Assembly (NCBI GenBank): GCA_021299715.1
Contig: JAJTEL010000002.1
Span: forward strand, 124,001 to 188,000
Length of the DNA stretch: 64,000 nt
Direction of reading: 5' to 3'
From: Ilumatobacteraceae bacterium
GTDB taxonomy: Bacteria > Actinomycetota > Acidimicrobiia > Acidimicrobiales > Ilumatobacteraceae
The notes below the pieces were generated by a model. It searched no databases and was not told the origin of the DNA. It was given only the letters and a program-made list of their open reading frames with translations. Shown one piece after another: positions 3,307 through 62,145 of this stretch (position 1 is its first letter; each line of letters opens with the position of its first letter). The translations under genes were made by a program, and so were the position numbers.

Positions 3307-5775
3307 ATGAACATAGAAAACGATTCACTTCTTGACGAAGAACGTTCGGATGCTCACGAGTCGACGCCAACGTCCGAGTGGGTGGAAACTTTCAAAGCAA
3401 TGAGCACCACCGCAATCGTGCTCGGTGCAACGTTGATCATCTTGTCGGTCTTGCACCCCAATCTCATTTTGAAGAACAACACTCCAACGGGTGGCGATAT
3501 GGGCGCACACGTGTGGGGTCCTGCGTATTTGCGAGATGTGTTGTTGCCACACTGGAGATTGACCGGTTGGAGCATGGATTGGTATTCCGGACTTCCGGCA
3601 TATCGCTTCTACATGGTGGTGCCAGCACTTGCCATTGTGTTGCTAGACATCGTGTTGCCGTATGGCATTGCATTCAAGATCATCGTGGTTCTTGGCCTCG
3701 TTGCATTTCCGTGGTGTGTGCACTTCATGGGGCGAATCGCAAAGTTGGCGTACCCATTGCCAGAACTCATGGTGGTGGGCGCCACAATGTTCTTGCTCGA
3801 TGAAAGTTTCACCATTTACGGCGGAAACATTGCATCCACAATGGCTGGTGAGTTCTCTCACTCCATCTCACTTGCGCTTTCGATGGTGGGATTGGGGCTC
3901 TTTGCACGCGGACTAGACGATGGCAAACATCGCGGCTGGGCTGCCATCTTCATTGCGCTGTCTGCTCTCAGTCACGGCATTGTCTTAATGTTCGTCTTCG
4001 GTGGAGCACTCGTCATGATGCTTCTGCGCTTAGATAAACAACGTCTTCGTTACGGACTCACCACTATTGGGTGCGCCATTCTCTTGTCTGCGTTCTGGGT
4101 CGTGCCGTTCCTTGGTGGGCATGCATTCATGACCGACATGAAGTACGGGTCCGAACCAGGCGGCGGGTCATTTACATCAATGTGGGACATGTACTTTCCG
4201 TTGTCAACAACATGGGACATTCTTCTCGTGTTGTTGTCCGTTGCTGGTTTTGTCGGGTCTTGGATTCGTCGGCGCCATTTCGGAATTTGGATGGGTGTCT
4301 ACATTGTCATTCTCATGATTGGTGTCAAGGCGGCTCAAGGCGGGCTTCCTGTTATTGGCTTGTTGTGGAACCCGCGAGTCCTTCCGTTCCTCTATCTCTT
4401 GCGGTACATGCTTGCGGCCATCGGTGTCTACGAAGTTGCGTCCTACTTCAAGCGCGTCATTGCTCTCGAGCGTTCTCGCGACAACGTGCCTACAGAACCG
4501 TCTACGCGAATGGGAACATCCATTTTGTGGTCGTTTGCTGTTGTGTGCCTCGTGGTCATTGGCGTGCGGTACCAGTCACTTCCGTTCGCAAAGATCACCA
4601 GCAATGCTCAGGGCACAAGCTATTCGTGGGGGCCCATTAACTTTCCTGCGTCGCGAGCATTCTCCGACGGTTGGGCGCGATGGAACTTTGAGGGGTACGA
4701 AGGCAAAGCGTCGTACGGCGAATATCACGGCCTTGTTCAAACCATGGACACTCTTGGCAAGAACAAAGATCACGGATGTGGTCGCGCACTCTGGGAGAAC
4801 AATTCCGAGCTGAATAAGTACGGCACCACCATGGCGCTCATGCTGTTGCCGTTCTGGACTAAGGGTTGCATTGGGTCAATGGAAGGTCTGTTCTTTGAAG
4901 CGGCCGGAACAACTCCGTATCACTTCATTTCTGCCGCCGCATTGTCGAAACAAAGTAGTAATCCGGTTCGCGAACTTCGATACGACAACAACGATCCAGT
5001 GAAGGGCGCGGCGTATATGCGCATGCTGGGCATTAAGTACTACATGGCCTTTACCCCAGAAGCCGTACAAAAAGCAGACACTGTTCCGGAATTAGTGAAG
5101 GTGGGAATAAGTGGGCCGTGGAACATTTATGAACTGGCCGACCTTCCTATGGTTGTTGCGTTAGAAACTCAACCCGTTGTTGTAAATGAACGCACAGGCG
5201 ATCGTCGCGAACGTTGGTTAGAAATTGGAACGTCGTATTTCCAAAACACATCTGAATGGGCAGCGTTGCCGGTGTCGAACGGACCAAAGGAATGGCAACG
5301 AATTGATGTAAAGGTTGACACGTCACGTCAAATAGGTGAAGAAGGTGAACCTGGTCGACAAGTTGACATAGTGACGCCTCAACAAAAGATTCAGCCACAG
5401 AAAATTGATGCAGCCACTGTGTCAAACGTTGTCATTGACGACGAGTCGGTGTCTTTCAGTGTTGACAAAGTAGGTACTCCAATACTTGTCAAAGTGAGCT
5501 ACTTCCCGAACTGGACCGTCTCTGGAGCAAAAGCGGTGTATCGCGCAGCTCCGAACATGATGGTTGTTGTACCAACGGAGAAGAACGTTCGTATGTCGTA
5601 CGAGCCGTCAAACCTTGATCAATTTGCCTACATTCTCACCTTTGCGGGAATTGTTTTGGTGGTGTTCATGTTGCGCCGGCGATTGCGTTACGGAACTTCA
5701 CTTCCTTCTCGTACCTCTGGGGGATCAGAAGTATCGGCACAGCCAGAGGACCCCGCAGGTAACCTCTCTCATTGA
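3307..5775 (+). CDS. Large polytopic membrane protein (6-pyruvoyl-tetrahydropterin-synthase-related / GT-C-like)
   Basis: 822 residues. A short charged N-terminus is followed by about ten hydrophobic segments up to ~residue 400, a large soluble region (~430-770), and one more helix near 785-805. An early loop reads TPTGGDMGAHVW after the first helix, with an acidic residue in the position where GT-C-type glycosyltransferases carry theirs. This matches the 'PTPS-related membrane' family, whose name comes from a region of similarity and not a proven pterin function. It overlaps the phosphomannomutase start by one base, suggesting a role in exported polysaccharide or glycolipid assembly. That role is an inference. 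Confidence 0.7.
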   Translation: MNIENDSLLDEERSDAHESTPTSEWVETFKAMSTTAIVLGATLIILSVLHPNLILKNNTPTGGDMGAHVWGPAYLRDVLLPHWRLTGWSMDWYSGLPAYRFYMVVPALAIVLLDIVLPYGIAFKIIVVLGLVAFPWCVHFMGRIAKLAYPLPELMVVGATMFLLDESFTIYGGNIASTMAGEFSHSISLALSMVGLGLFARGLDDGKHRGWAAIFIALSALSHGIVLMFVFGGALVMMLLRLDKQRLRYGLTTIGCAILLSAFWVVPFLGGHAFMTDMKYGSEPGGGSFTSMWDMYFPLSTTWDILLVLLSVAGFVGSWIRRRHFGIWMGVYIVILMIGVKAAQGGLPVIGLLWNPRVLPFLYLLRYMLAAIGVYEVASYFKRVIALERSRDNVPTEPSTRMGTSILWSFAVVCLVVIGVRYQSLPFAKITSNAQGTSYSWGPINFPASRAFSDGWARWNFEGYEGKASYGEYHGLVQTMDTLGKNKDHGCGRALWENNSELNKYGTTMALMLLPFWTKGCIGSMEGLFFEAAGTTPYHFISAAALSKQSSNPVRELRYDNNDPVKGAAYMRMLGIKYYMAFTPEAVQKADTVPELVKVGISGPWNIYELADLPMVVALETQPVVVNERTGDRRERWLEIGTSYFQNTSEWAALPVSNGPKEWQRIDVKVDTSRQIGEEGEPGRQVDIVTPQQKIQPQKIDAATVSNVVIDDESVSFSVDKVGTPILVKVSYFPNWTVSGAKAVYRAAPNMMVVVPTEKNVRMSYEPSNLDQFAYILTFAGIVLVVFMLRRRLRYGTSLPSRTSGGSEVSAQPEDPAGNLSH

Positions 5776-28594: not shown

Positions 28595-29908
28595 TTACGA
28601 GAAAGTGATTCGGTCAATTCCTGCTGCGAATTGGGCACTTCGGGTGCGGTAGTCGCCAATGTCGCGCGGGGTGGGGGCTCCGGGGCTAAAAACCACTCGG
28701 TCACCCGATTGCGTGAGGGAAACCGCAATTTCTACGGCATCGGCCACATTGTCTGAATTTGCCGGACACACAGTGGCTCGGGTGGTGAGTAGTTCTTTGT
28801 ACAGCCTGGTTGAAGGTGCTCCGAGAACGACAATTGCGCCTAAATGTTGAGCCGCATTAACAGCATTGCACAAGGGTCCGAAATCGACATTGCGATCCTC
28901 GCCACCCATGATGAGTACAAAACGTGAGTGATTAAACCGTTCGATAGCAGCAATGACGCCAAGAGGATTACTTGCGAGCGCATCGTCTACGAATTGACGA
29001 TCGCCTTTTGTTGCGACCAGTTGTTGACGAGATGGAAGCGGCTGAGTGCTGTGGAGGGCATCAAGGACGTGGGCAAGCGTGAGCGAGTTATCGGCCGCAA
29101 GCGCAGCGTCCATTGCAAGCTCTAAGTTGCGCGGAAATGTTGTATTTCCCATTCGCTCTAGCGCTGCTTCGCCTTGGGGCGTGGCAAGTGCGACATGAAC
29201 TGAATGCTGAGAGTTGCTGAATCTCTTTTTCAAGACGCCTTCTAAGCCGTGAGTAACAAGGTGTTCTTGGTCAGATGCGTGGCAGACCACGTGCTCGAGT
29301 TGTGTGTGTCCAAAGAGATTTAGCTTGTCGCGGTGATAGGTGGCTACTGAGCCGTGCCACGGAATGTGATCTTCGCCCAACGATGTAAGAACTCCGATAG
29401 ATGGTGACGTTGTGCAGTCGCTGGCTTGGTAACTGGATACCTCAATAACGAGAAAGTCTGCGGTACGAGATGTTTGTGCAACGGGTACGCCAATGTTCCC
29501 TGCAAGTTCCACTGAATGTCCGGCGGAACGAAGAATGTTTGCAATGAGTGCAGATGTAGTGCTCTTGCCTTTCGTGCCTGTGACGCCAATAATTCGGCGC
29601 GGGTCTTGGTCGGCCAGCCATAGGGCAAGCAAACCGGACGATGCATAGTTGGCGAGTTCTTCTCGGTATCGAGACACCCCAGGCGACCGAATGATGAAAT
29701 CTGGATTCCATTCGGGAATCTGATGAACACCAAGAAGTGAAACATCTAACGATTGAGCAGAGCGTTGTGCATCAACATCACTGTCGGGTGTATCGCTCAC
29801 AATGGCGACTTGACAGTTTTGGCGTAGGCAGATTTCGGCAGCGGAATAACCTTCGCGTGCACCGCCCCAAACAATCACACGAAGCCCACGTACATCGGAG
29901 AGTTTCAC
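28595..29908 (-). CDS. murD2: MurD2: UDP-MurNAc-L-Ala L-glutamate ligase (probable)
   Basis: 437 residues of Mur-ligase architecture: an N-terminal UDP-MurNAc-binding domain, an ATP loop VTGTKGKSTTSA (GTKGKST at 111-117), a central segment VIEVSSYQ and a C-terminal domain with KGDRQFVDDALASNPLG. It resembles MurD but is paired by a four-base overlap (29905-29908) with a MurL-type epimerase gene, which is the arrangement of the MurD2/MurL system of Xanthomonas oryzae, where MurD2 adds L-Glu instead of D-Glu to UDP-MurNAc-L-Ala. This specificity is inferred from the partner; it could instead be a normal MurD. It is not in a dcw cluster. Confidence 0.72.
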   Translation of the reverse strand: MKLSDVRGLRVIVWGGAREGYSAAEICLRQNCQVAIVSDTPDSDVDAQRSAQSLDVSLLGVHQIPEWNPDFIIRSPGVSRYREELANYASSGLLALWLADQDPRRIIGVTGTKGKSTTSALIANILRSAGHSVELAGNIGVPVAQTSRTADFLVIEVSSYQASDCTTSPSIGVLTSLGEDHIPWHGSVATYHRDKLNLFGHTQLEHVVCHASDQEHLVTHGLEGVLKKRFSNSQHSVHVALATPQGEAALERMGNTTFPRNLELAMDAALAADNSLTLAHVLDALHSTQPLPSRQQLVATKGDRQFVDDALASNPLGVIAAIERFNHSRFVLIMGGEDRNVDFGPLCNAVNAAQHLGAIVVLGAPSTRLYKELLTTRATVCPANSDNVADAVEIAVSLTQSGDRVVFSPGAPTPRDIGDYRTRSAQFAAGIDRITFS

Positions 29909-31194
29909 GCAGATTGTCCTAGGAATGCTCGAATGTCGGCGTCAAATGTTGTGTTCGACCAGTCGCCCTGCTCTTCATCGGTTCTCGTTGCAGGCTGTTC
30001 TGCAAGGTTGCGACTCGCCATAACAACGGAATGCTGTGACCACGCTGGTGATTGCAGTAACTGGCGCATCGAGTCTCGTGCTTCTTGCACATCGGCCACG
30101 CACTCAAAAGGCTTGGAATCATCAGTCATCAGTTCGTGAAATCCTGAAATTTGAGTGGAGTCATTAAGAAGGTCGCGTCCGAAGATGTTTGCGATGCGCG
30201 CGGGCGAAAGATACGGCGCCAACGACAAAAACATCCCTCGACACTTCGGGCATTGACCGCACCATCCCTTGCTTCTCTTCGAATCATCTCGCAACATTGC
30301 CTGGTTGCAGCTCATAAAGAGCGGATGTAAATCAAGACACTTAGTTGCGAATGCGCGGGAAATGTGGTGGTCGGGTATGTCTCGAAGAACAGACATGTAT
30401 TGCACTATTGACCCTGCTGAATCGACGGCCGCTCCGAGCACGCGTTCAAATTCAAGTGACTTACTGAACTGATGATTGATTTCTATTCCGTCTTTGACTC
30501 GTGTTGGCCGCGATGCGGATTTTTCGTTGGCCATCACCACGCTTGTGTGACCTGTGAGTTCAGCGGTGATAAGCGAAAGTAACGAATTGATTGCAGTAAC
30601 GGGGATATGCCCGTTCGGTGCACCGGACTCGTTCATTTTCAACAGCACTGGATCCAGCGAACGCGATGCGGTGAGCAACTTCAGGGAAAGGGTGTCGGCA
30701 ATCCGTTGGGCAAACGGATTCAGACCAATGGTGAAAAGAGTGGGTTGTAGATGTTGAAGAGCGCTAGCGACAACGCAGGAATCGCGACCGGCGCCAAAAG
30801 GAATGAGAGGAATTCCGGGGCTATGGAGCAAGGCCTCAATCGTGAAGTCGGCACCACGTGGCTCATCGGCCACCACAAAAGCAGTGGTGAGGGGGAGACC
30901 ATTGTGGAAGGCGAATTCACGCATTCCTTCGTTGTATGTCTTTTCAACGAGGCGGTATCCAGCGTTCGAGATATCAATTTGAGGAAACCTCACCACCGCG
31001 GGCGCTACGGCCTTTGCATAACTCACACCTGCGACAATCACCAGAAGATCAAGTAGTCGTTCCACCGTGTGGTGGGTTTCTACATCAACCGGGAATTGAA
31101 TGTGCTCAGCAAAAGAAATTTCACCACTGTGGTAGTGAAGCGTGACGTCGGGGCCACTCGCAGACCAGCCATCGATAATGAACTCAGTCGTCAT
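29905..31194 (-). CDS. murL: MurL: UDP-MurNAc-L-Ala-L-Glu epimerase (probable)
   Basis: 429 residues. MurL converts the terminal L-Glu of UDP-MurNAc-L-Ala-L-Glu to D-Glu, consuming ATP to AMP and PPi. Features seen: a PP-loop-like motif FGAGRDS (133-139) fitting an AMP/PPi reaction, NGHIPVTAIN (194-203), and a cysteine cluster CGQCPKC (312-318) followed by RGMFL. This combination is what I recall for MurL homologs of Xanthomonas and some Actinobacteria. Ribosome binding site GAGGAG precedes the ATG; TAGGCT upstream may be the -10. It is first in an operon with murD2. Confidence 0.78.
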   Translation of the reverse strand: MTTEFIIDGWSASGPDVTLHYHSGEISFAEHIQFPVDVETHHTVERLLDLLVIVAGVSYAKAVAPAVVRFPQIDISNAGYRLVEKTYNEGMREFAFHNGLPLTTAFVVADEPRGADFTIEALLHSPGIPLIPFGAGRDSCVVASALQHLQPTLFTIGLNPFAQRIADTLSLKLLTASRSLDPVLLKMNESGAPNGHIPVTAINSLLSLITAELTGHTSVVMANEKSASRPTRVKDGIEINHQFSKSLEFERVLGAAVDSAGSIVQYMSVLRDIPDHHISRAFATKCLDLHPLFMSCNQAMLRDDSKRSKGWCGQCPKCRGMFLSLAPYLSPARIANIFGRDLLNDSTQISGFHELMTDDSKPFECVADVQEARDSMRQLLQSPAWSQHSVVMASRNLAEQPATRTDEEQGDWSNTTFDADIRAFLGQSA

Positions 31195-31251
31195 TGATGG
31201 CTCCTCACATTCTCAGCCTAAAGCGGCTACACAGGTCCCCGCTTTCGCCTA

Positions 31252-37064: not shown

Positions 37065-37115
37065 GTGACAAAGGCTGTGGCGATGGTTACAATTCCGACT
37101 GGATTTATCGGGAAT
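37065..37115 (+). promoter_or_regulatory. cysM promoter with overlapping inverted repeat (operator candidate)
   Basis: GTGACA (37065-37070), a 17-bp spacer and TACAAT (37088-37093) make a convincing sigma-70 promoter. A 24-bp imperfect palindrome at 37092-37115, with arms ATTCCGA and TCGGGAAT around a 9-base AT-rich centre, covers the end of the -10 and the expected start site. That is a position where a repressor would block transcription. The arm pattern resembles Rrf2-type (CymR/IscR) sites; this is an inference. Confidence 0.55.
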
Positions 37116-37175
37116 AGCACTCAAGGTGGAGAGGTTTCACCTAGAGGCCTGCCTGGTAGGCCGCGAAGGAGAACC

Positions 37176-38162
37176 ATGTCGATTGCGGATGTGAGAAGGA
37201 ACGGAGGCTCGGTGTTCGTACTTCAGAACGCCCTCGAGCTCGTTGGCAACACTCCCATGGTCGACGTCTCCAATTTGTCGCCTAATCCCAGTGTTCGCAT
37301 CGTGGCGAAGTTGGAAAGCCAAAACCCCTTTGGCTCGGTGAAGGACCGCATTGCAAAAGCAATGATCGAAGATGCCGAGCGCACCGGACGCTTGGTGCCT
37401 GGTCAGCGCATCGTGGAGCCGTCATCGGGCAACACCGGAATTGCACTTGCTGCCATTGCGAAGATGAAGGGTTATCCCATCACCATCCTCATGCCTACTT
37501 CGGTCAGCATTGAGCGTCGACAAATGCTCGAAGTCTTCGGCGCTGAAATCATTCTCACACCCGGTGAAGAAGGATCAAATGGCGCAGTGCGACGCGCGCA
37601 AGAACTTGCAGCGCAAAACCCTGAATGGTGTTTCTTGTATCAGTATGCAAACGATGCAAACCCACGTGCGCACTACGAAGGCACTGGCCCAGAGATTTAT
37701 CGCGACTGTCCAGAAATTACGCACTTCGTTGCGGGTCTCGGCACCAGCGGAACACTGATGGGTACGGGCAAGTATCTCAAAGAACAGAATCCCAACATCA
37801 AGATTGTTGCTGTAGAGCCTCCACTTGGTGAGCGTGTTGAAGGTTTGCGCAATTTGGACGATGGTTACATCCCACCCGTGTTCGACAACTGGCACGGCCG
37901 CGAACTTCTTGACCGTAAGCGCGTTGTTCGTCCTCGCGAATCTTTGGAGTGGACTCGCCGCATCGTGCAAGAGTGCGGAATTTTCGCCGGAATTTCATCG
38001 GGAGCATCGCTTGCGGGCGCTGTGAAGGTGGCGAGCGAAATTGAAGAGGGAACCATCGTGTTCATTGTGTGCGATGGTGGTTGGAAGTACCTGTCTACAG
38101 GTGCTTACACAGACGATCTCGATCAAGCCGAAGCAAACGCCGAAAAGATCATCTACTTCTAA
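37176..38162 (+). CDS. cysM: Cysteine synthase, CysM type
   Basis: 328 residues from the ATG after GAAGGAGAACC. PLP fold II: PLP lysine in NPFGSVKDR, TSGNTGI-type loop SSGNTGIALAA, and the phosphate-binding loop GLGTSGTLMGTG. The arginine in the EGLRNLDDG motif aligns with the Arg of mycobacterial CysM (YALRNMDEG) that binds the phosphate of O-phosphoserine, so this enzyme may use O-phosphoserine and a sulfur carrier rather than O-acetylserine and sulfide. That is from memory of the M. tuberculosis sequence. No CysO gene is adjacent; promoter and operator candidate are just upstream. Confidence 0.92.
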   Translation: MSIADVRRNGGSVFVLQNALELVGNTPMVDVSNLSPNPSVRIVAKLESQNPFGSVKDRIAKAMIEDAERTGRLVPGQRIVEPSSGNTGIALAAIAKMKGYPITILMPTSVSIERRQMLEVFGAEIILTPGEEGSNGAVRRAQELAAQNPEWCFLYQYANDANPRAHYEGTGPEIYRDCPEITHFVAGLGTSGTLMGTGKYLKEQNPNIKIVAVEPPLGERVEGLRNLDDGYIPPVFDNWHGRELLDRKRVVRPRESLEWTRRIVQECGIFAGISSGASLAGAVKVASEIEEGTIVFIVCDGGWKYLSTGAYTDDLDQAEANAEKIIYF

Positions 38163-38177
38163 GTGAGTAGCGCGCCG

Positions 38178-39002
38178 CTAACGGCCCGCGATGAGCACTG
38201 CTAGCCCTGCAACAACAACGAGTGCGGCTACAACGCGTCGTCGCATGTCTGATTCACCCAAGTAACGCGTTCCCACCAGCGCGACAATGACCACGCTTGA
38301 TTCACGAAGTGCCGTTACATAGCCCACGGGTGCTTGTTGCATCGCAATGAGAACCATCCAATAGGTCAATGCAGATGCACTTCCAGCAAGCACAAACCAA
38401 TGGGCTCGCGACTTCATTGCAGAGACCATGTCGCGTGTACGCCCCATGGCGATTCCAGCAATGGTGGTGCTCACAGCAGTAGCAACGAACAGCACAAGTG
38501 GATACAAGTTTCCGCCCGTCAATCGGGAGCCGTGACCGTCAACAACTGAGTACGCACCGATTGTGAGCGAAACCAACAACGCAGCCTTCACGTGCGATGC
38601 GTCGGCCTTTCCCGCAAGCAGAAGAATTCCGGCGATGGCAATAACAATTCCGAAAACCGCCAAGGCCGTGAAGTGATCGTTCAGAAAGAGAACTCCACCT
38701 ATTGCGGCGAGTAACGCGCCGGCGCCCCGAGCGATGGGATAGGTAACAGAGAAGTCGCCAATGGTGTACGCGCGTGCAAGAGCGCCGATGTACACCACAT
38801 GAATAACGCCGCTAGACAGCACCGGCCACCACGCCAAGTTGCTAGGCCAGCCAGTGAACAACAAGATGACTGCGCACACACACCCGCCAGCGGTCATCTG
38901 GCCCCACAGGGCAATCCATCGGTCACCGCTTTGTTTCACCCACAAGTTCCATGAGGCGTGCAACACCGCGGCGGCGAGAGCGAGAAGTGTTGCGGTGAGC
39001 AC
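38178..39002 (-). CDS. EamA/DMT-family transporter
   Basis: 274 residues with about ten transmembrane helices in two EamA repeats. The second repeat contains ALTYWMVLIAMQQAPVGYVTALRESSVVIVALVGTRYLGE. Probably exports or imports a small metabolite; substrate unknown. It is inserted between cysM and rph, where mycobacteria carry a rhomboid gene and murI. It is on the opposite strand to both neighbours. Confidence 0.88.
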   Translation of the reverse strand: MLTATLLALAAAVLHASWNLWVKQSGDRWIALWGQMTAGGCVCAVILLFTGWPSNLAWWPVLSSGVIHVVYIGALARAYTIGDFSVTYPIARGAGALLAAIGGVLFLNDHFTALAVFGIVIAIAGILLLAGKADASHVKAALLVSLTIGAYSVVDGHGSRLTGGNLYPLVLFVATAVSTTIAGIAMGRTRDMVSAMKSRAHWFVLAGSASALTYWMVLIAMQQAPVGYVTALRESSVVIVALVGTRYLGESDMRRRVVAALVVVAGLAVLIAGR

Positions 39003-39092
39003 GGAGAATGACGCTACGCCTGTTGAGGGTGCTCACTGCGTATTGTGGGAAGCGCACATGCGCCGAATGTCGGTGGTGCGGAGGAAATCATC

Positions 39093-39854
39093 ATGAGTCG
39101 CCCAGACGGACGCACACCAGATCAATTACGGCCTATGTCATTTCAGCGTGACTTCACGGAGATGTCGGCAGGATCAGTGCTGGTCACATTCGGGCGCACA
39201 CGTGTGTTGTGCACTGCATCGGTTGATGAAGATGTTCCTCGTTGGATGAAGGGGTCGGGCAAAGGATGGGTCACCGCGGAGTACTCAATGCTTCCGGGTT
39301 CGTCGCCAGAACGAGTTGACAGAGAAGCGGCCAAAGGAAAACAAAGTGGACGCACAGTAGAGATTCAACGACTCATTGGCCGTTCGTTGCGTGCCGCATG
39401 CGATATGCGCGCCTTGGGTGAACGCCAAGTAGTAGTGGACTGCGATGTATTGCAGGCAGATGGTGGCACTCGCACCGCAAGCATTTGTGGTGGTTATCTC
39501 GCACTGCACGATGCACTCACTCGTCTTGTGCAGAACGGTTCCATTCCTCAGCACCCACTTCATTCCCTTTGTGCTGCAATTTCAGTGGGAGTGTGTGGGG
39601 GAGTTCCTGTTTTAGACCTTCCCTATGTTGAAGACTCCACCGCTGAAGTGGATATGAACGTTGTGATGTTGCGACCTGTCAACGGTGGGGAGTCTCGATT
39701 TGTAGAAGTGCAAGGAACCGCCGAAGGTATGGCATTCACGCGTGGCGAACTTGATGAGTTGTTGATGTTGGCCGATACCGGCCTTGGTCGAATCTTTGAT
39801 CTTCAATCGGGCTTGCTGTCCGAGGCGCCACCTGCTCGACTTCCTGAGCGATAA
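39093..39854 (+). CDS. rph: Ribonuclease PH
   Basis: 253 residues from the ATG preceded by GAGGAAATC. Phosphate-dependent 3'-5' exoribonuclease trimming tRNA 3' ends. Motifs: [44 protein letters not shown], the RNA-binding [19 protein letters not shown] and the active-site [20 protein letters not shown]. It is followed by rdgB after 5 bp, the common actinobacterial pair. Confidence 0.97.
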
Positions 39855-39859
39855 CCCTT

Positions 39860-40453
39860 ATGCGACTCGTGTGTGCGAGTGCGAACCCGAAAAAGGTCGC
39901 GGAAATTTCCCGATTGTTGCCTGCATGGGTGGAGCTTCTGCCGCGACCACCAGAGGTGGGTGACGTTGAAGAGGCTGCACCCACGCTGGAAGGAAATGCC
40001 GCAATAAAGGCAGTCGAGATTGCAAACTTTGCGCACGAATGGGCACTCGCCGATGACACGGGACTGCTTGTTGATGCCTTGAATGGTGAGCCTGGTGTGC
40101 GTAGTGCTCGGTACGCGGGTGACAACGCAACCGATGCGCAGAATCGAGAGTTATTGTTACGCGCTCTACACGGAGTTACCCAGCGGTCGGCACGTTTCAG
40201 AACCGTTCTGGCCGTTGTGAACAGGTTGGGCGAAATGCATTTCGTTGCAGGCGAATGTGAAGGGTGCATTGCTACCAATGAACGTGGTGTTAACGGGTTT
40301 GGTTACGACAGTATTTTCGTTCCAAACGATGGTGATGGCAGAACTTTTGCTGAAATGTCCGCAGAAGAAAAAGATGCTCTCTCTCACAGGGGACGAGCGT
40401 TGCGTGAATTACCCGCTTTATTGTCACGCATAGTGGGGCTACCACCCACGTAA
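39860..40453 (+). CDS. rdgB: dITP/XTP pyrophosphatase (RdgB/HAM1)
   Basis: 197 residues. Removes deaminated purine nucleoside triphosphates (dITP, XTP) from the pool. Characteristic segments: ASANPKKVAEISRLL, YALADDTGL-like ALADDTGLLVDALNGEPGVRSARYAG, and GVNGFGYDSIFVPNDGDGRTFAEMSAEEKDALSHRGRAL. It overlaps the convergent D-threonine-aldolase-like gene by 15 bp at the 3' ends. Confidence 0.96.
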   Translation: MRLVCASANPKKVAEISRLLPAWVELLPRPPEVGDVEEAAPTLEGNAAIKAVEIANFAHEWALADDTGLLVDALNGEPGVRSARYAGDNATDAQNRELLLRALHGVTQRSARFRTVLAVVNRLGEMHFVAGECEGCIATNERGVNGFGYDSIFVPNDGDGRTFAEMSAEEKDALSHRGRALRELPALLSRIVGLPPT

Positions 40454-60384: not shown

Positions 60385-62145
60385 CTAGCTCCGCACCAAT
60401 GAGACAACATGTTGCACTGCAGATGCAACAGGTATTGCCTCGTTCGTTCCGGCATGACGATCGCGCACTTCAACGTTGCCGTCTGCCAGAGATTTTCCAA
60501 CGACAACAATGGTGGGAATTCCCATGAGTTCTGCATCTTTGAACTTCACTCCCGGCGAAACGCCATTGCGATCGTCCAGGATGACATCGAGTCCTTGTGC
60601 TTCAAGATGTTTCGCTAATTGCTCGCCTGCAACCGTGATGTCATCACCGTTCTTGCCAGTGACAACAATGTGAACATCGACTGGTGAAATTGCGCGTGGC
60701 CACTTCAGACCAATGTCGTCGTGGAATGCTTCAGCAATAGATGCCACTGCGCGTGACACGCCAACTCCATACGAACCCATGGTGACAACAACTTGCTTCC
60801 CGTTTTGGTCGAGTACCGAAAGCCCAAGTTTGTCGGCGTACTTACGGCCCAGTTGAAACACGTGGCCAATCTCTATTCCGCGTGCAATTTCCAATGCCTT
60901 GCCGCAGTTCGGGCATGGGTCTCCCGCAGCAACTTCAACCGCTTCGATAGTTCCATCTGCGGTGAAGTCGCGACCATTCACTAAGTAGAGAACGTGCGTG
61001 TCTTTTTGGTTTGCACCAGTGACCCACGCGCTACCAGGAACCACAGATGGGTCAAGCATGTAGCGAATTCCTGTTGCACTGTCTGCTCCAAGAACCTGTG
61101 GTCCGATGTATCCGCGTACAAGACCAGGATTCTTTGCGAACGTTGCGTCGTCCATTGGCTCAACTTCGGCCGGCGACACTTGGGCTTCAATGCGCTTAAT
61201 GTCCACTTCGCGGTCTCCGGGTACGCCAACAACAAGAGCCGATGTGGTTCCGTCAGGGTTACGAAGAGTGAGCACCACGTTCTTTAGTGTGTCTGATGCA
61301 TTCCACGTGCGATCAGAACGTGGAGCATTGGTATTCAGATACTCAACAAGCGATGCAATGGTGGGACAGTTCGGCGTAGACAGCGTTGATGTGGCGGGGT
61401 GTTCCGAAGTATCGGGTGCAAGCGCACCTGTGGCGACGGCTTCAGTGTTGGCTGCATAGTCACATGATGTACAACGAACGAATGTGTCTTCGCCAACTTC
61501 AATAGGTGCCAAGAACTCTTCGCTCATAGAGCCACCCATGGCGCCACTCATTGCTTTCACAATGACGTAGGGCAGACCAAGCCGAGTGAAGATTCGCTCG
61601 TATGCATCGCGGTGGTCGGTGTAGCTCTTGGCGAGACCAGCGTCGTCTATGTCGAACGAGTAACTGTCTTTCATTAAGAACTCGCGTCCGCGCAACAATC
61701 CGGCGCGGGGGCGCGCTTCATCGCGATACTTCGTTTGAATTTGGTACAGCGATACGGGCAAGTCTTTGTAACTGGAGTACAGGTCTTTCACCAGAAGTGT
61801 GAACATCTCTTCGTGCGTGGGCCCAAGCAGATAGTCCGCGCCCTTACGGTCGACAAGACGAAAGAGATTGTCGCCGTATTCTGTCCAGCGCCCAGTTGCC
61901 TCGTAGACATCGCGTGGGAGTAGGGCGGGGAAGTGAACTTCTTGTGCCCCGATGGCGTCCATTTCTTCGCGAACAATGTTTTCCACCTTGCGCAGGACTC
62001 GCCACCCAAGTGGCAGCCAGGTGTACCCGCCTGGGGCGGCACGGCGGATATATCCGGCACGCACGAGAAGTCGGTGGGATGGAACCTCGGCATCGGAGGG
62101 GTCATCACGAAGGGTGCGAACGAAGAGATGGGAGAGACGAAGCAT
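60385..62145 (-). CDS. proS: Prolyl-tRNA synthetase, bacterial type
   Basis: 586 residues. Class II synthetase with motif 2 ([28 protein letters not shown]), motif 3 ([12 protein letters not shown]), an editing (INS) domain in between (~220-400), and an anticodon-binding domain at the C-terminus. Charges tRNA-Pro, hydrolysing misacylated Ala-tRNA-Pro. It is divergent from rimP with a 126-bp gap. Confidence 0.97.

Follow-up and report, generated by a model that had tools for sequence, protein, structure and literature searches.

A divergent MurL-MurD2-like gene pair that very probably replaces murI and the division-cell-wall murD in an Ilumatobacteraceae bacterium, and a proposed kinship of MurL with QueC/QatC enzymes

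D-glutamate (D-Glu) is nearly universal in peptidoglycan and murI is regarded as an antibacterial target. How a bacterium in which no murI can be found makes its D-Glu is the question raised by a locus of an Ilumatobacteraceae bacterium (Acidimicrobiia), which was studied in a window of 64,000 nucleotides (assembly GCA_021299715.1, contig JAJTEL010000002.1, positions 124,001-188,000, forward strand; all coordinates below are those of the window). In this window a murL homologue adjoins a murD2-like ligase gene, and a sequence-only reading had proposed that the two form a MurL-MurD2 pair. We consider it very probable that the pair is a rare late-epimerisation route to D-Glu which replaces murI and the murD of the division-cell-wall (dcw) cluster in this lineage. 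Judging from the sequence, D-Glu would be made on the peptidoglycan precursor and not as the free amino acid.

The genome assembly (1.91 Mb, 16 contigs, 92.83% complete) gave no match to the murI model TIGR00067 at E≤0.001, in a search that did not extend to dapF and other racemase families. Its one PF01063 aminotransferase is of the ilvE type (400.5 bits to TIGR01122, ilvE_I) and reached only 110.3 bits as a D-amino-acid transaminase, against a cut-off of 277.45; no enzyme of the latter type was found in the genome. The sole murD over the cut-off is the ligase gene of the window (TIGR01087, 229.6 bits against a cut-off of 211.95). In the dcw cluster the nine proteins tested stand in the order rsmH, ftsI-like penicillin-binding protein, murE, mraY, ftsW, murG-like, murC, murB and ftsZ. 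The murG-like gene scored 220 bits against a cut-off of 250, murC, murE, mraY, ftsW and murB are over their cut-offs, mraY overlaps ftsW, and murD was not found in the cluster. With neither murI, nor dat, nor a second murD over the cut-off in the genome, these searches support the MurL-MurD2 reading that had been made from the sequence.

The murL homologue (29905-31194, minus strand) encodes 429 aa and is preceded by a Shine-Dalgarno-like GAGGAG (31201-31206, minus strand). The ligase gene (28595-29908, minus strand, 437 aa) follows directly, the stop of murL and the start of the ligase sharing the 4 bp of a GTGA (29905-29908, minus strand). This overlap had been pointed out in the sequence-only reading and is found as described, and through it the two genes may be translationally coupled. 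The motifs FGAGRDS, NGHIPVTAIN, CGQCPKC and GTKGKST, on which that reading relied, are likewise all present in the translations of the open reading frames (ORFs) of the window.

Among 148 Acidimicrobiia genomes, 14 had MurL and 98 a murI-family match (86 above the cut-off), and none had both over the cut-off (Fisher p 2e-6). Among 396 Actinomycetota genomes, a set that contains part of the former, the corresponding figures were 27, 346 (329 above the cut-off) and none (Fisher p 8e-24); both p values are uncorrected for ancestry. No murI match at E≤0.001 was obtained in 13 of the 14 MurL genomes of the class and 24 of the 27 of the phylum. Four genera contain genomes of both kinds, namely g1 (G000 / G091), g214 (G328 / G414), g194 (G383 / G296, G373) and g160 (G378 / G242, G261, G300). 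The best murD adjoins murL or is fused with it in 30 of 31 MurL genomes, the exception being G420, where the two lie on different contigs. In G009 (L014:100-2682) MurL and MurD share a single reading frame of 861 aa, and in G334 the two genes are divergent.

The kind of ligase encoded next to murL was examined in a gene survey of 28 of the 148 class genomes. These were all 14 MurL carriers and an equal number of further genomes, of which 11 contributed to the residue count and the tree (45 rows, including X. sacchari and leaving out three MurDs of genus g29). A dcw MurD was defined as one flanked by two other Mur-ligase matches within about 4 kb, the genes being read one by one for G091 only, and two of the 11 genomes with such a MurD (G026 and G145) are also without a murI match. 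The 11 dcw MurDs, all from Acidimicrobiia without MurL, form a clade with that of E. coli (support 100/100), and the MurD of the window falls outside it. It branches on a long branch with L007, from an Acidimicrobiaceae metagenome, to which it is 82% identical over 371 columns. In the approximately unbiased (AU) test, a tree in which the window MurD and L007 join the 11 dcw MurDs was rejected at p 1.2e-4, for a group that had been named after the first tree was seen. Tree and test thus both reject the candidate explanation that the ligase is the dcw murD of its own lineage in a new place. Beyond this position beside L007 the trees point to no donor of the pair, and no sign of transfer was seen in the base composition of murL (51.8% GC) and murD2 (52.7%) when compared with the whole window (53.2%).

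The residues discussed as determinants of ligase specificity were also compared, in the E. coli numbering of the literature. According to PMC8788868, E197 and R358 set the L-Glu specificity of X. oryzae MurD2, the replacement E197D altered its stereospecificity, and E. coli MurD becomes able to use L-Glu through K319T. Our comparison covered 32 MurL-linked MurDs (31 genomes and L007), G388 being unreadable at two sites and G420 being counted in spite of its separate contigs. At the site of E. coli K319, the 31 readable sequences have Leu (18) or Ile (13), with one gap, and at that of K348 all 31 readable ones have Arg; Lys stands at both sites in 11/11 dcw MurDs. At the D182 site the MurL-linked MurDs have Asp in 27, Glu in four and Cys in one (the fusion of G009), and the dcw MurDs Asp in ten and Asn in one. 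X. sacchari MurD2 reads E, I and R at D182, K319 and K348, and the three g29 MurDs, aligned afterwards, D, K and K. The sequence-only reading had called for an alignment of these residues, and it supports a MurD2 in two of three positions: the window ligase has Leu311 (28976-28978, minus strand) for K319 and Arg339 (28892-28894, minus strand) for K348, and at D182, where X. oryzae MurD2 has Glu197, it keeps an aspartate, Asp180 (29369-29371, minus strand). It falls in this respect in the larger, D-type group of MurL-linked ligases. We call the gene MurD2-like because it lacks D182E, a mark of only part of these ligases. The counts suggest that the loss of K319 and the change K348R are general among MurL-linked ligases and that only some of these ligases have D182E; the K319/K348 pair would then offer a sequence test for L-Glu-accepting ligases, the published D182E mark being apparently not general.

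The MurL of the window matched the model NF041275 with E 2.5e-86 (289.9 bits), residues 30-393 aligning to profile positions 38-407 of 447, so that the search which had been proposed for it found homology over nearly the full length; the same model had matches in 0/14 control genomes. The score does not reach the 700 bits set as the curated cut-off, and a score over this threshold, without which the sequence-only reading was to be given up, was formally not obtained. The model is named for Xanthomonadales, and the cut-off was reached in none of the 396 Actinomycetota genomes, the MurL of X. sacchari scoring 836.5 bits. MurL activity has been demonstrated in Micromonospora and Salinispora (PMC8788868). 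The cut-off of 700 bits fits Xanthomonadales and delimits the NF041275 model, not the enzyme, and because it lies above the 289.9 bits found here and is unreached in all 396 genomes we place the window MurL in the wider MurL family and not in NF041275.

The window MurL is 32% identical to that of X. sacchari over 418 columns and agrees with it at 35 of the 36 conserved positions compared, the exception being A135. An alignment of 21 MurL sequences which includes it has 34 invariant columns. In the conservation count, for which 31 of 33 rows were kept (the partial rows L078 and L085 were dropped), the invariant residues include G195/H196/P198, N240/H241/Q242/S244/K245 and P362/C365/V366/E371. 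Also invariant in 31/31 rows are G134, G136, D138 and S139 of the PP-loop motif G134-A-G-R-D-S139 (30778-30795, minus strand) and the four cysteines C296, C312, C315 and C318 (stretch 30241-30312, minus strand). The second position of the PP-loop, GGGxDS, is Gly in 29 of the 31 MurLs, and the window sequence and L007 read GAG.

Several observations weigh against a MurL-MurD2 route in this bacterium. The Asp180 of the ligase, the low score of MurL in its own model, its modest identity to the Xanthomonas enzyme, the GAGRDS in place of GGGxDS and the late naming of the group in the AU test have been given above. To these are added weak murI-family matches in one of the 14 MurL genomes of the class (G141, 29.3 bits) and three of the 27 of the phylum (G247, G354 and G444, E 1.5e-5 to 8.2e-4), with E values from 8.2e-4 to 4.4e-7 overall. 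Furthermore, 37 of the 148 class genomes and 26 of the 396 phylum genomes have, by subtraction, neither a MurL nor a murI match, and for this reason the absence of murI is by itself no proof of the MurL route. The genome is also incomplete, and DapF is the source of D-Glu in Chlamydia (PMC5885031), dapF being outside the search made here.

A first alternative is an ordinary D-Glu-adding MurD that stands outside the dcw cluster. Free D-Glu would then come from an unrecognised racemase, for instance DapF in a moonlighting role, and the MurL homologue would have some other function. The ligase does keep the D182 residue and pass the ordinary murD cut-off, and genomes with neither gene do exist. 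Nevertheless this explanation appears very improbable to us: the AU test separates the ligase from the dcw MurDs of its kin, neither K319 nor K348 is kept, a double replacement which every readable MurL-linked ligase shares and which is absent from E. coli and the 14 other MurDs compared, and the mutual exclusion of MurL and murI, together with the adjacency or fusion of MurL and MurD, would have to be coincidence.

The surroundings of the pair raise a second alternative. One neighbouring gene is AMP-binding and resembles acyl-CoA ligases, another, named by eye, is potassium-transporter-like (kup-like), and the pair lies on contig C10 and the dcw cluster on contig C1, which agrees with the earlier remark that it is remote from that cluster. 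The pair might thus serve a side pathway, in which another Mur-like peptide (a secondary metabolite or a modified precursor) is made outside the main peptidoglycan synthesis, and the MurL homologues of Pseudonocardia plasmids, without an annotated MurD partner, would be in line with such a role. We hold this to be very unlikely, as the pair contains the only MurD over the cut-off in a genome that also has murC, murE, mraY, ftsW, murB and a murG-like gene.

The former places of the missing genes can be seen by comparison with G091, a genome placed in the same genus which has murI and no MurL match. In G091 murD stands between mraY and ftsW, whose products are 78% and 48% identical, respectively, to those of the window genome, where these two genes overlap. 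The murI of G091 lies between a PALP-family gene and rph-rdgB. The corresponding block of the window consists of the gene of a PLP-dependent enzyme of the PALP family (37065-38162, plus strand, 88% identical to the G091 gene beside murI), an EamA-family transporter gene at the position which murI has in G091 (38178-39002, minus strand), rph encoding RNase PH (39045-39854, plus strand, 83% identical) and an rdgB/Ham1 family gene (39860-40453, plus strand, 60% identical); within 37065-40453 the EamA gene has thus the strand opposite to its neighbours. A remnant of murI was sought by tblastn with the G091 protein, which gave only a 5-residue chance match in 38101-39100 and, in the rest of the window, one weak match (E 0.53, 60577-60822). 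Both murI and the dcw murD are therefore gone from intact surroundings, and with both scars exposed by a congeneric genome the replacement lends itself to study as a natural experiment. The lost murI site is about 7 kb from the murL-murD2 pair. For the pair itself no empty site could be demonstrated in G091, the insertion site not being comparable since different genes surround the kup-like flank there. That murI and the dcw murD are missing through gaps in the assembly is so improbable as to be rejected, for although the completeness of 92.83% would allow a copy in the missing 7%, both sites lie on unbroken sequence from which the gene is absent (mraY overlapping ftsW, and PALP-EamA-rph-rdgB continuous), and murI is absent likewise from most MurL genomes of the class and the phylum.

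A separate observation concerns small Acidimicrobiia of genus g29 (family f14). Three of these genomes (G005, G011 and G017, about 1.1 Mb) have neither a MurL nor a murI match, and their MurDs keep D182, K319 and K348; four others (G097, G116, G132 and G147) give weak murI-family matches in a protein of about 230 aa. A divergent racemase or DapF may supply their D-Glu.

For the pair in the window we propose the following route. The ligase would add L-Glu to UDP-MurNAc-L-Ala, the MurL-like enzyme would invert the attached L-Glu to the D form at the expense of ATP, and MurE would continue from there. Activity of a MurD2 and MurL pair has been reported for X. oryzae, and likewise for Micromonospora sp. 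and Salinispora tropica (PMC8788868). At the PP-loop of MurL, ATP would convert the L-Glu residue to an acyl adenylate through its alpha-carboxylate, and this adenylate would acidify C-alpha, so that deprotonation followed by reprotonation on the other face would result in inversion. Hydrolysis of the adenylate to AMP could then make the step one-way. The adenylate hypothesis itself is taken from PMC8788868; its structural reading through the PP-loop and QueC is our own, a QueC/QatC type of enzyme suggesting an acyl-adenylate mechanism.

MurL was published without any known domain, and we think it somewhat more probable than its opposite that it is kin to PP-loop enzymes of the QueC/QatC type. 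An alignment of MurL sequences was compared by HHalign with a QueC profile of 22 sequences (E. coli and 21 of the 22 loci L129-L150), with Prob 90.2 and E 1.6e-6. The 173 aligned columns span the PP-loop through the cysteine cluster, and E was 2.2e-6 when X. sacchari was added. Among the controls, ten column shuffles gave Prob ≤0.47, the reversed alignment 0.16 and MurD 0.67; MurI, from 5 sequences only, gave Prob 17.8 and E 0.0014, which is above the shuffles, the reversal and MurD. The four invariant cysteines of MurL are collinear with the Cys4 of QueC in the HHalign comparison, and by analogy with QueC/QatC they may form a Zn site.

The predicted fold points, with less weight, in the same direction. 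In an AlphaFold2 model of the window MurL built from three sequences (mean pLDDT 67.6, pTM 0.67) the core is preceded by four predicted strands and three helices and followed by further helices. Searching the PDB with this model, Foldseek returned QatC as the sole match at E≤0.001 (E 5.8e-5, 443 columns; TM 0.34, rmsd 13.7). Below it, at E ≥0.03, the PP-loop proteins TtuA, YcfA and argininosuccinate synthase were mixed with unrelated Rossmann and biotin-carboxylase folds. PMC13279940 describes QatC as a QueC core that is extended by four strands and three helices at the N-terminus and by three helices at the C-terminus and has a Zn-binding Cys4; its reaction is called unresolved there. QatC belongs to the anti-phage system qatABCD.

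The TM-score is low and comes from a model of limited confidence, and single-sequence HHalign comparisons also speak against QueC as the particular relative, with E 0.025 for QueC, 0.0021 for TtcA, 0.01 for GuaA, 0.011 for MnmA, 0.095 for ArgG and 0.19 for NadE (six E. coli proteins without a PP-loop gave 0.14 to 0.73). The alignments to TtcA, GuaA and MnmA covered 39-56 columns at the PP-loop, and those to QueC and ArgG 179 and 159. As profiles were built for QueC and not for other PP-loop families, it is the cysteine order and the fold ranking that make QueC the nearest branch. PF06508 did not match the window MurL at E≤0.1, nor four other MurLs and the MurL-MurD fusion at E≤1, and MurL is for this reason kin to the QueC family and not a member of it. 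Among the other searches, Pfam gave only a sub-threshold zinc-ribbon match for the window MurL (E 0.0085), PADLOC gave none for MurL, phmmer of two MurLs against the PDB gave none, and the best hit of a MurL profile search was PH0300/TtuA (E 0.054), in the PP-loop region only.

We regard it as somewhat more likely than not that MurL is part of a broader QueC/QatC branch of PP-loop ATP pyrophosphatases and has a three-part build like that of QatC, that a carboxylate-adenylating enzyme of the kind known from 7-deazaguanine chemistry became a one-way peptide epimerase, and that the cassette has taken the place of murI and the dcw murD repeatedly, in some cases inside one actinobacterial genus. 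The link to QueC/QatC is the least expected part of this picture. Such a fold would replace the statement "mechanism not clear" by a model in which particular residues can be named and, if it is true, the anti-phage reaction of QatC might be read from the chemistry of MurL. No paper making a MurL-PP-loop or MurL-QueC link was found in the open-access literature, and the word "MurL" is absent from PMC13329287 and PMC13279940.

Some MurL homologues were observed in other settings. The Pseudonocardia plasmids NZ_CP052772.1 (L160:4881-6281), NZ_CP011869.1 (L161:4887-6296) and NZ_CP010991.1 (L162:4932-6326) each carry one, those of L160 and L162 scoring 323.1 and 321.7 bits to NF041275, with no annotated murD in the 11-kb stretches. 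Each lies beside a sigma-factor gene and a gene for a protein of about 1300 aa; the two such proteins that were scanned have nSTAND1 NTPase and WD40 domains. None of the three MurL homologues keeps the N of NGH, and two have Gly in place of R271. This MurL-like enzyme may work in a signalling- or defence-like setting, which would be in line with a kinship to QatC. On the 5331-bp contig L008 of a Thiomargarita metagenome-assembled genome, a MurL of 520 bits lies between a HAD-like hydrolase gene and a tatC-like gene (named by eye), and no MurD was found among the ORFs listed on this short contig. Its model (mean pLDDT 53.7) had YcfA as first match (E 7.2e-4), with QueC, QatC, Cap9, TtuA, argininosuccinate synthase and others listed. 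The same MurL had no match when scanned against viral contigs. A MurL-like stretch (35% identity over 70% of the X. sacchari query) is present at 4103-5044 of the unannotated record MT836755.1 ("Bacteriophage sp.", 8.9 kb, human faecal samples).

The MurL-MurD2 pathway was already known, including in some actinobacteria, and the window pair is a divergent addition to it. No report of MurL in Acidimicrobiia was found in the open-access literature, and the class is not among the taxa listed in PMC8788868. The pair resembles those of X. oryzae (XOO_1319-XOO_1320) and of Micromonospora and Salinispora described in PMC8788868 in having adjacent, overlapping genes, in the homology of MurL and in that no murI was found, and its ligase shares with Xanthomonas MurD2 (X. 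sacchari compared) the Arg at K348 and a residue other than Lys at K319. It differs from the Xanthomonas pair in keeping Asp at D182, in the GAG of the PP-loop, in the low identity of MurL to the X. sacchari enzyme and in its gene overlap, which is 4 bp here and 20 bp in X. sacchari. Unlike the canonical route through MurI and a dcw MurD, it goes with a genome in which neither gene is found and with a ligase outside the canonical MurD clade. With the QueC family (QueC, QatC and Cap9; PF06508) MurL has in common a PP-loop (GGGxDS, GAGRDS in the window, where QueC has SGGxDS) followed by C..CxxCxxC in the same order, and with QatC in particular its length (429 aa, the PDB chain of QatC having 428 residues) and the N- and C-terminal extensions round the core, whereas the cysteine spacing, C-x15-C-x2-C-x2-C in MurL against C-x8-C-x2-C-x2-C, and the substrate set it apart from that family.

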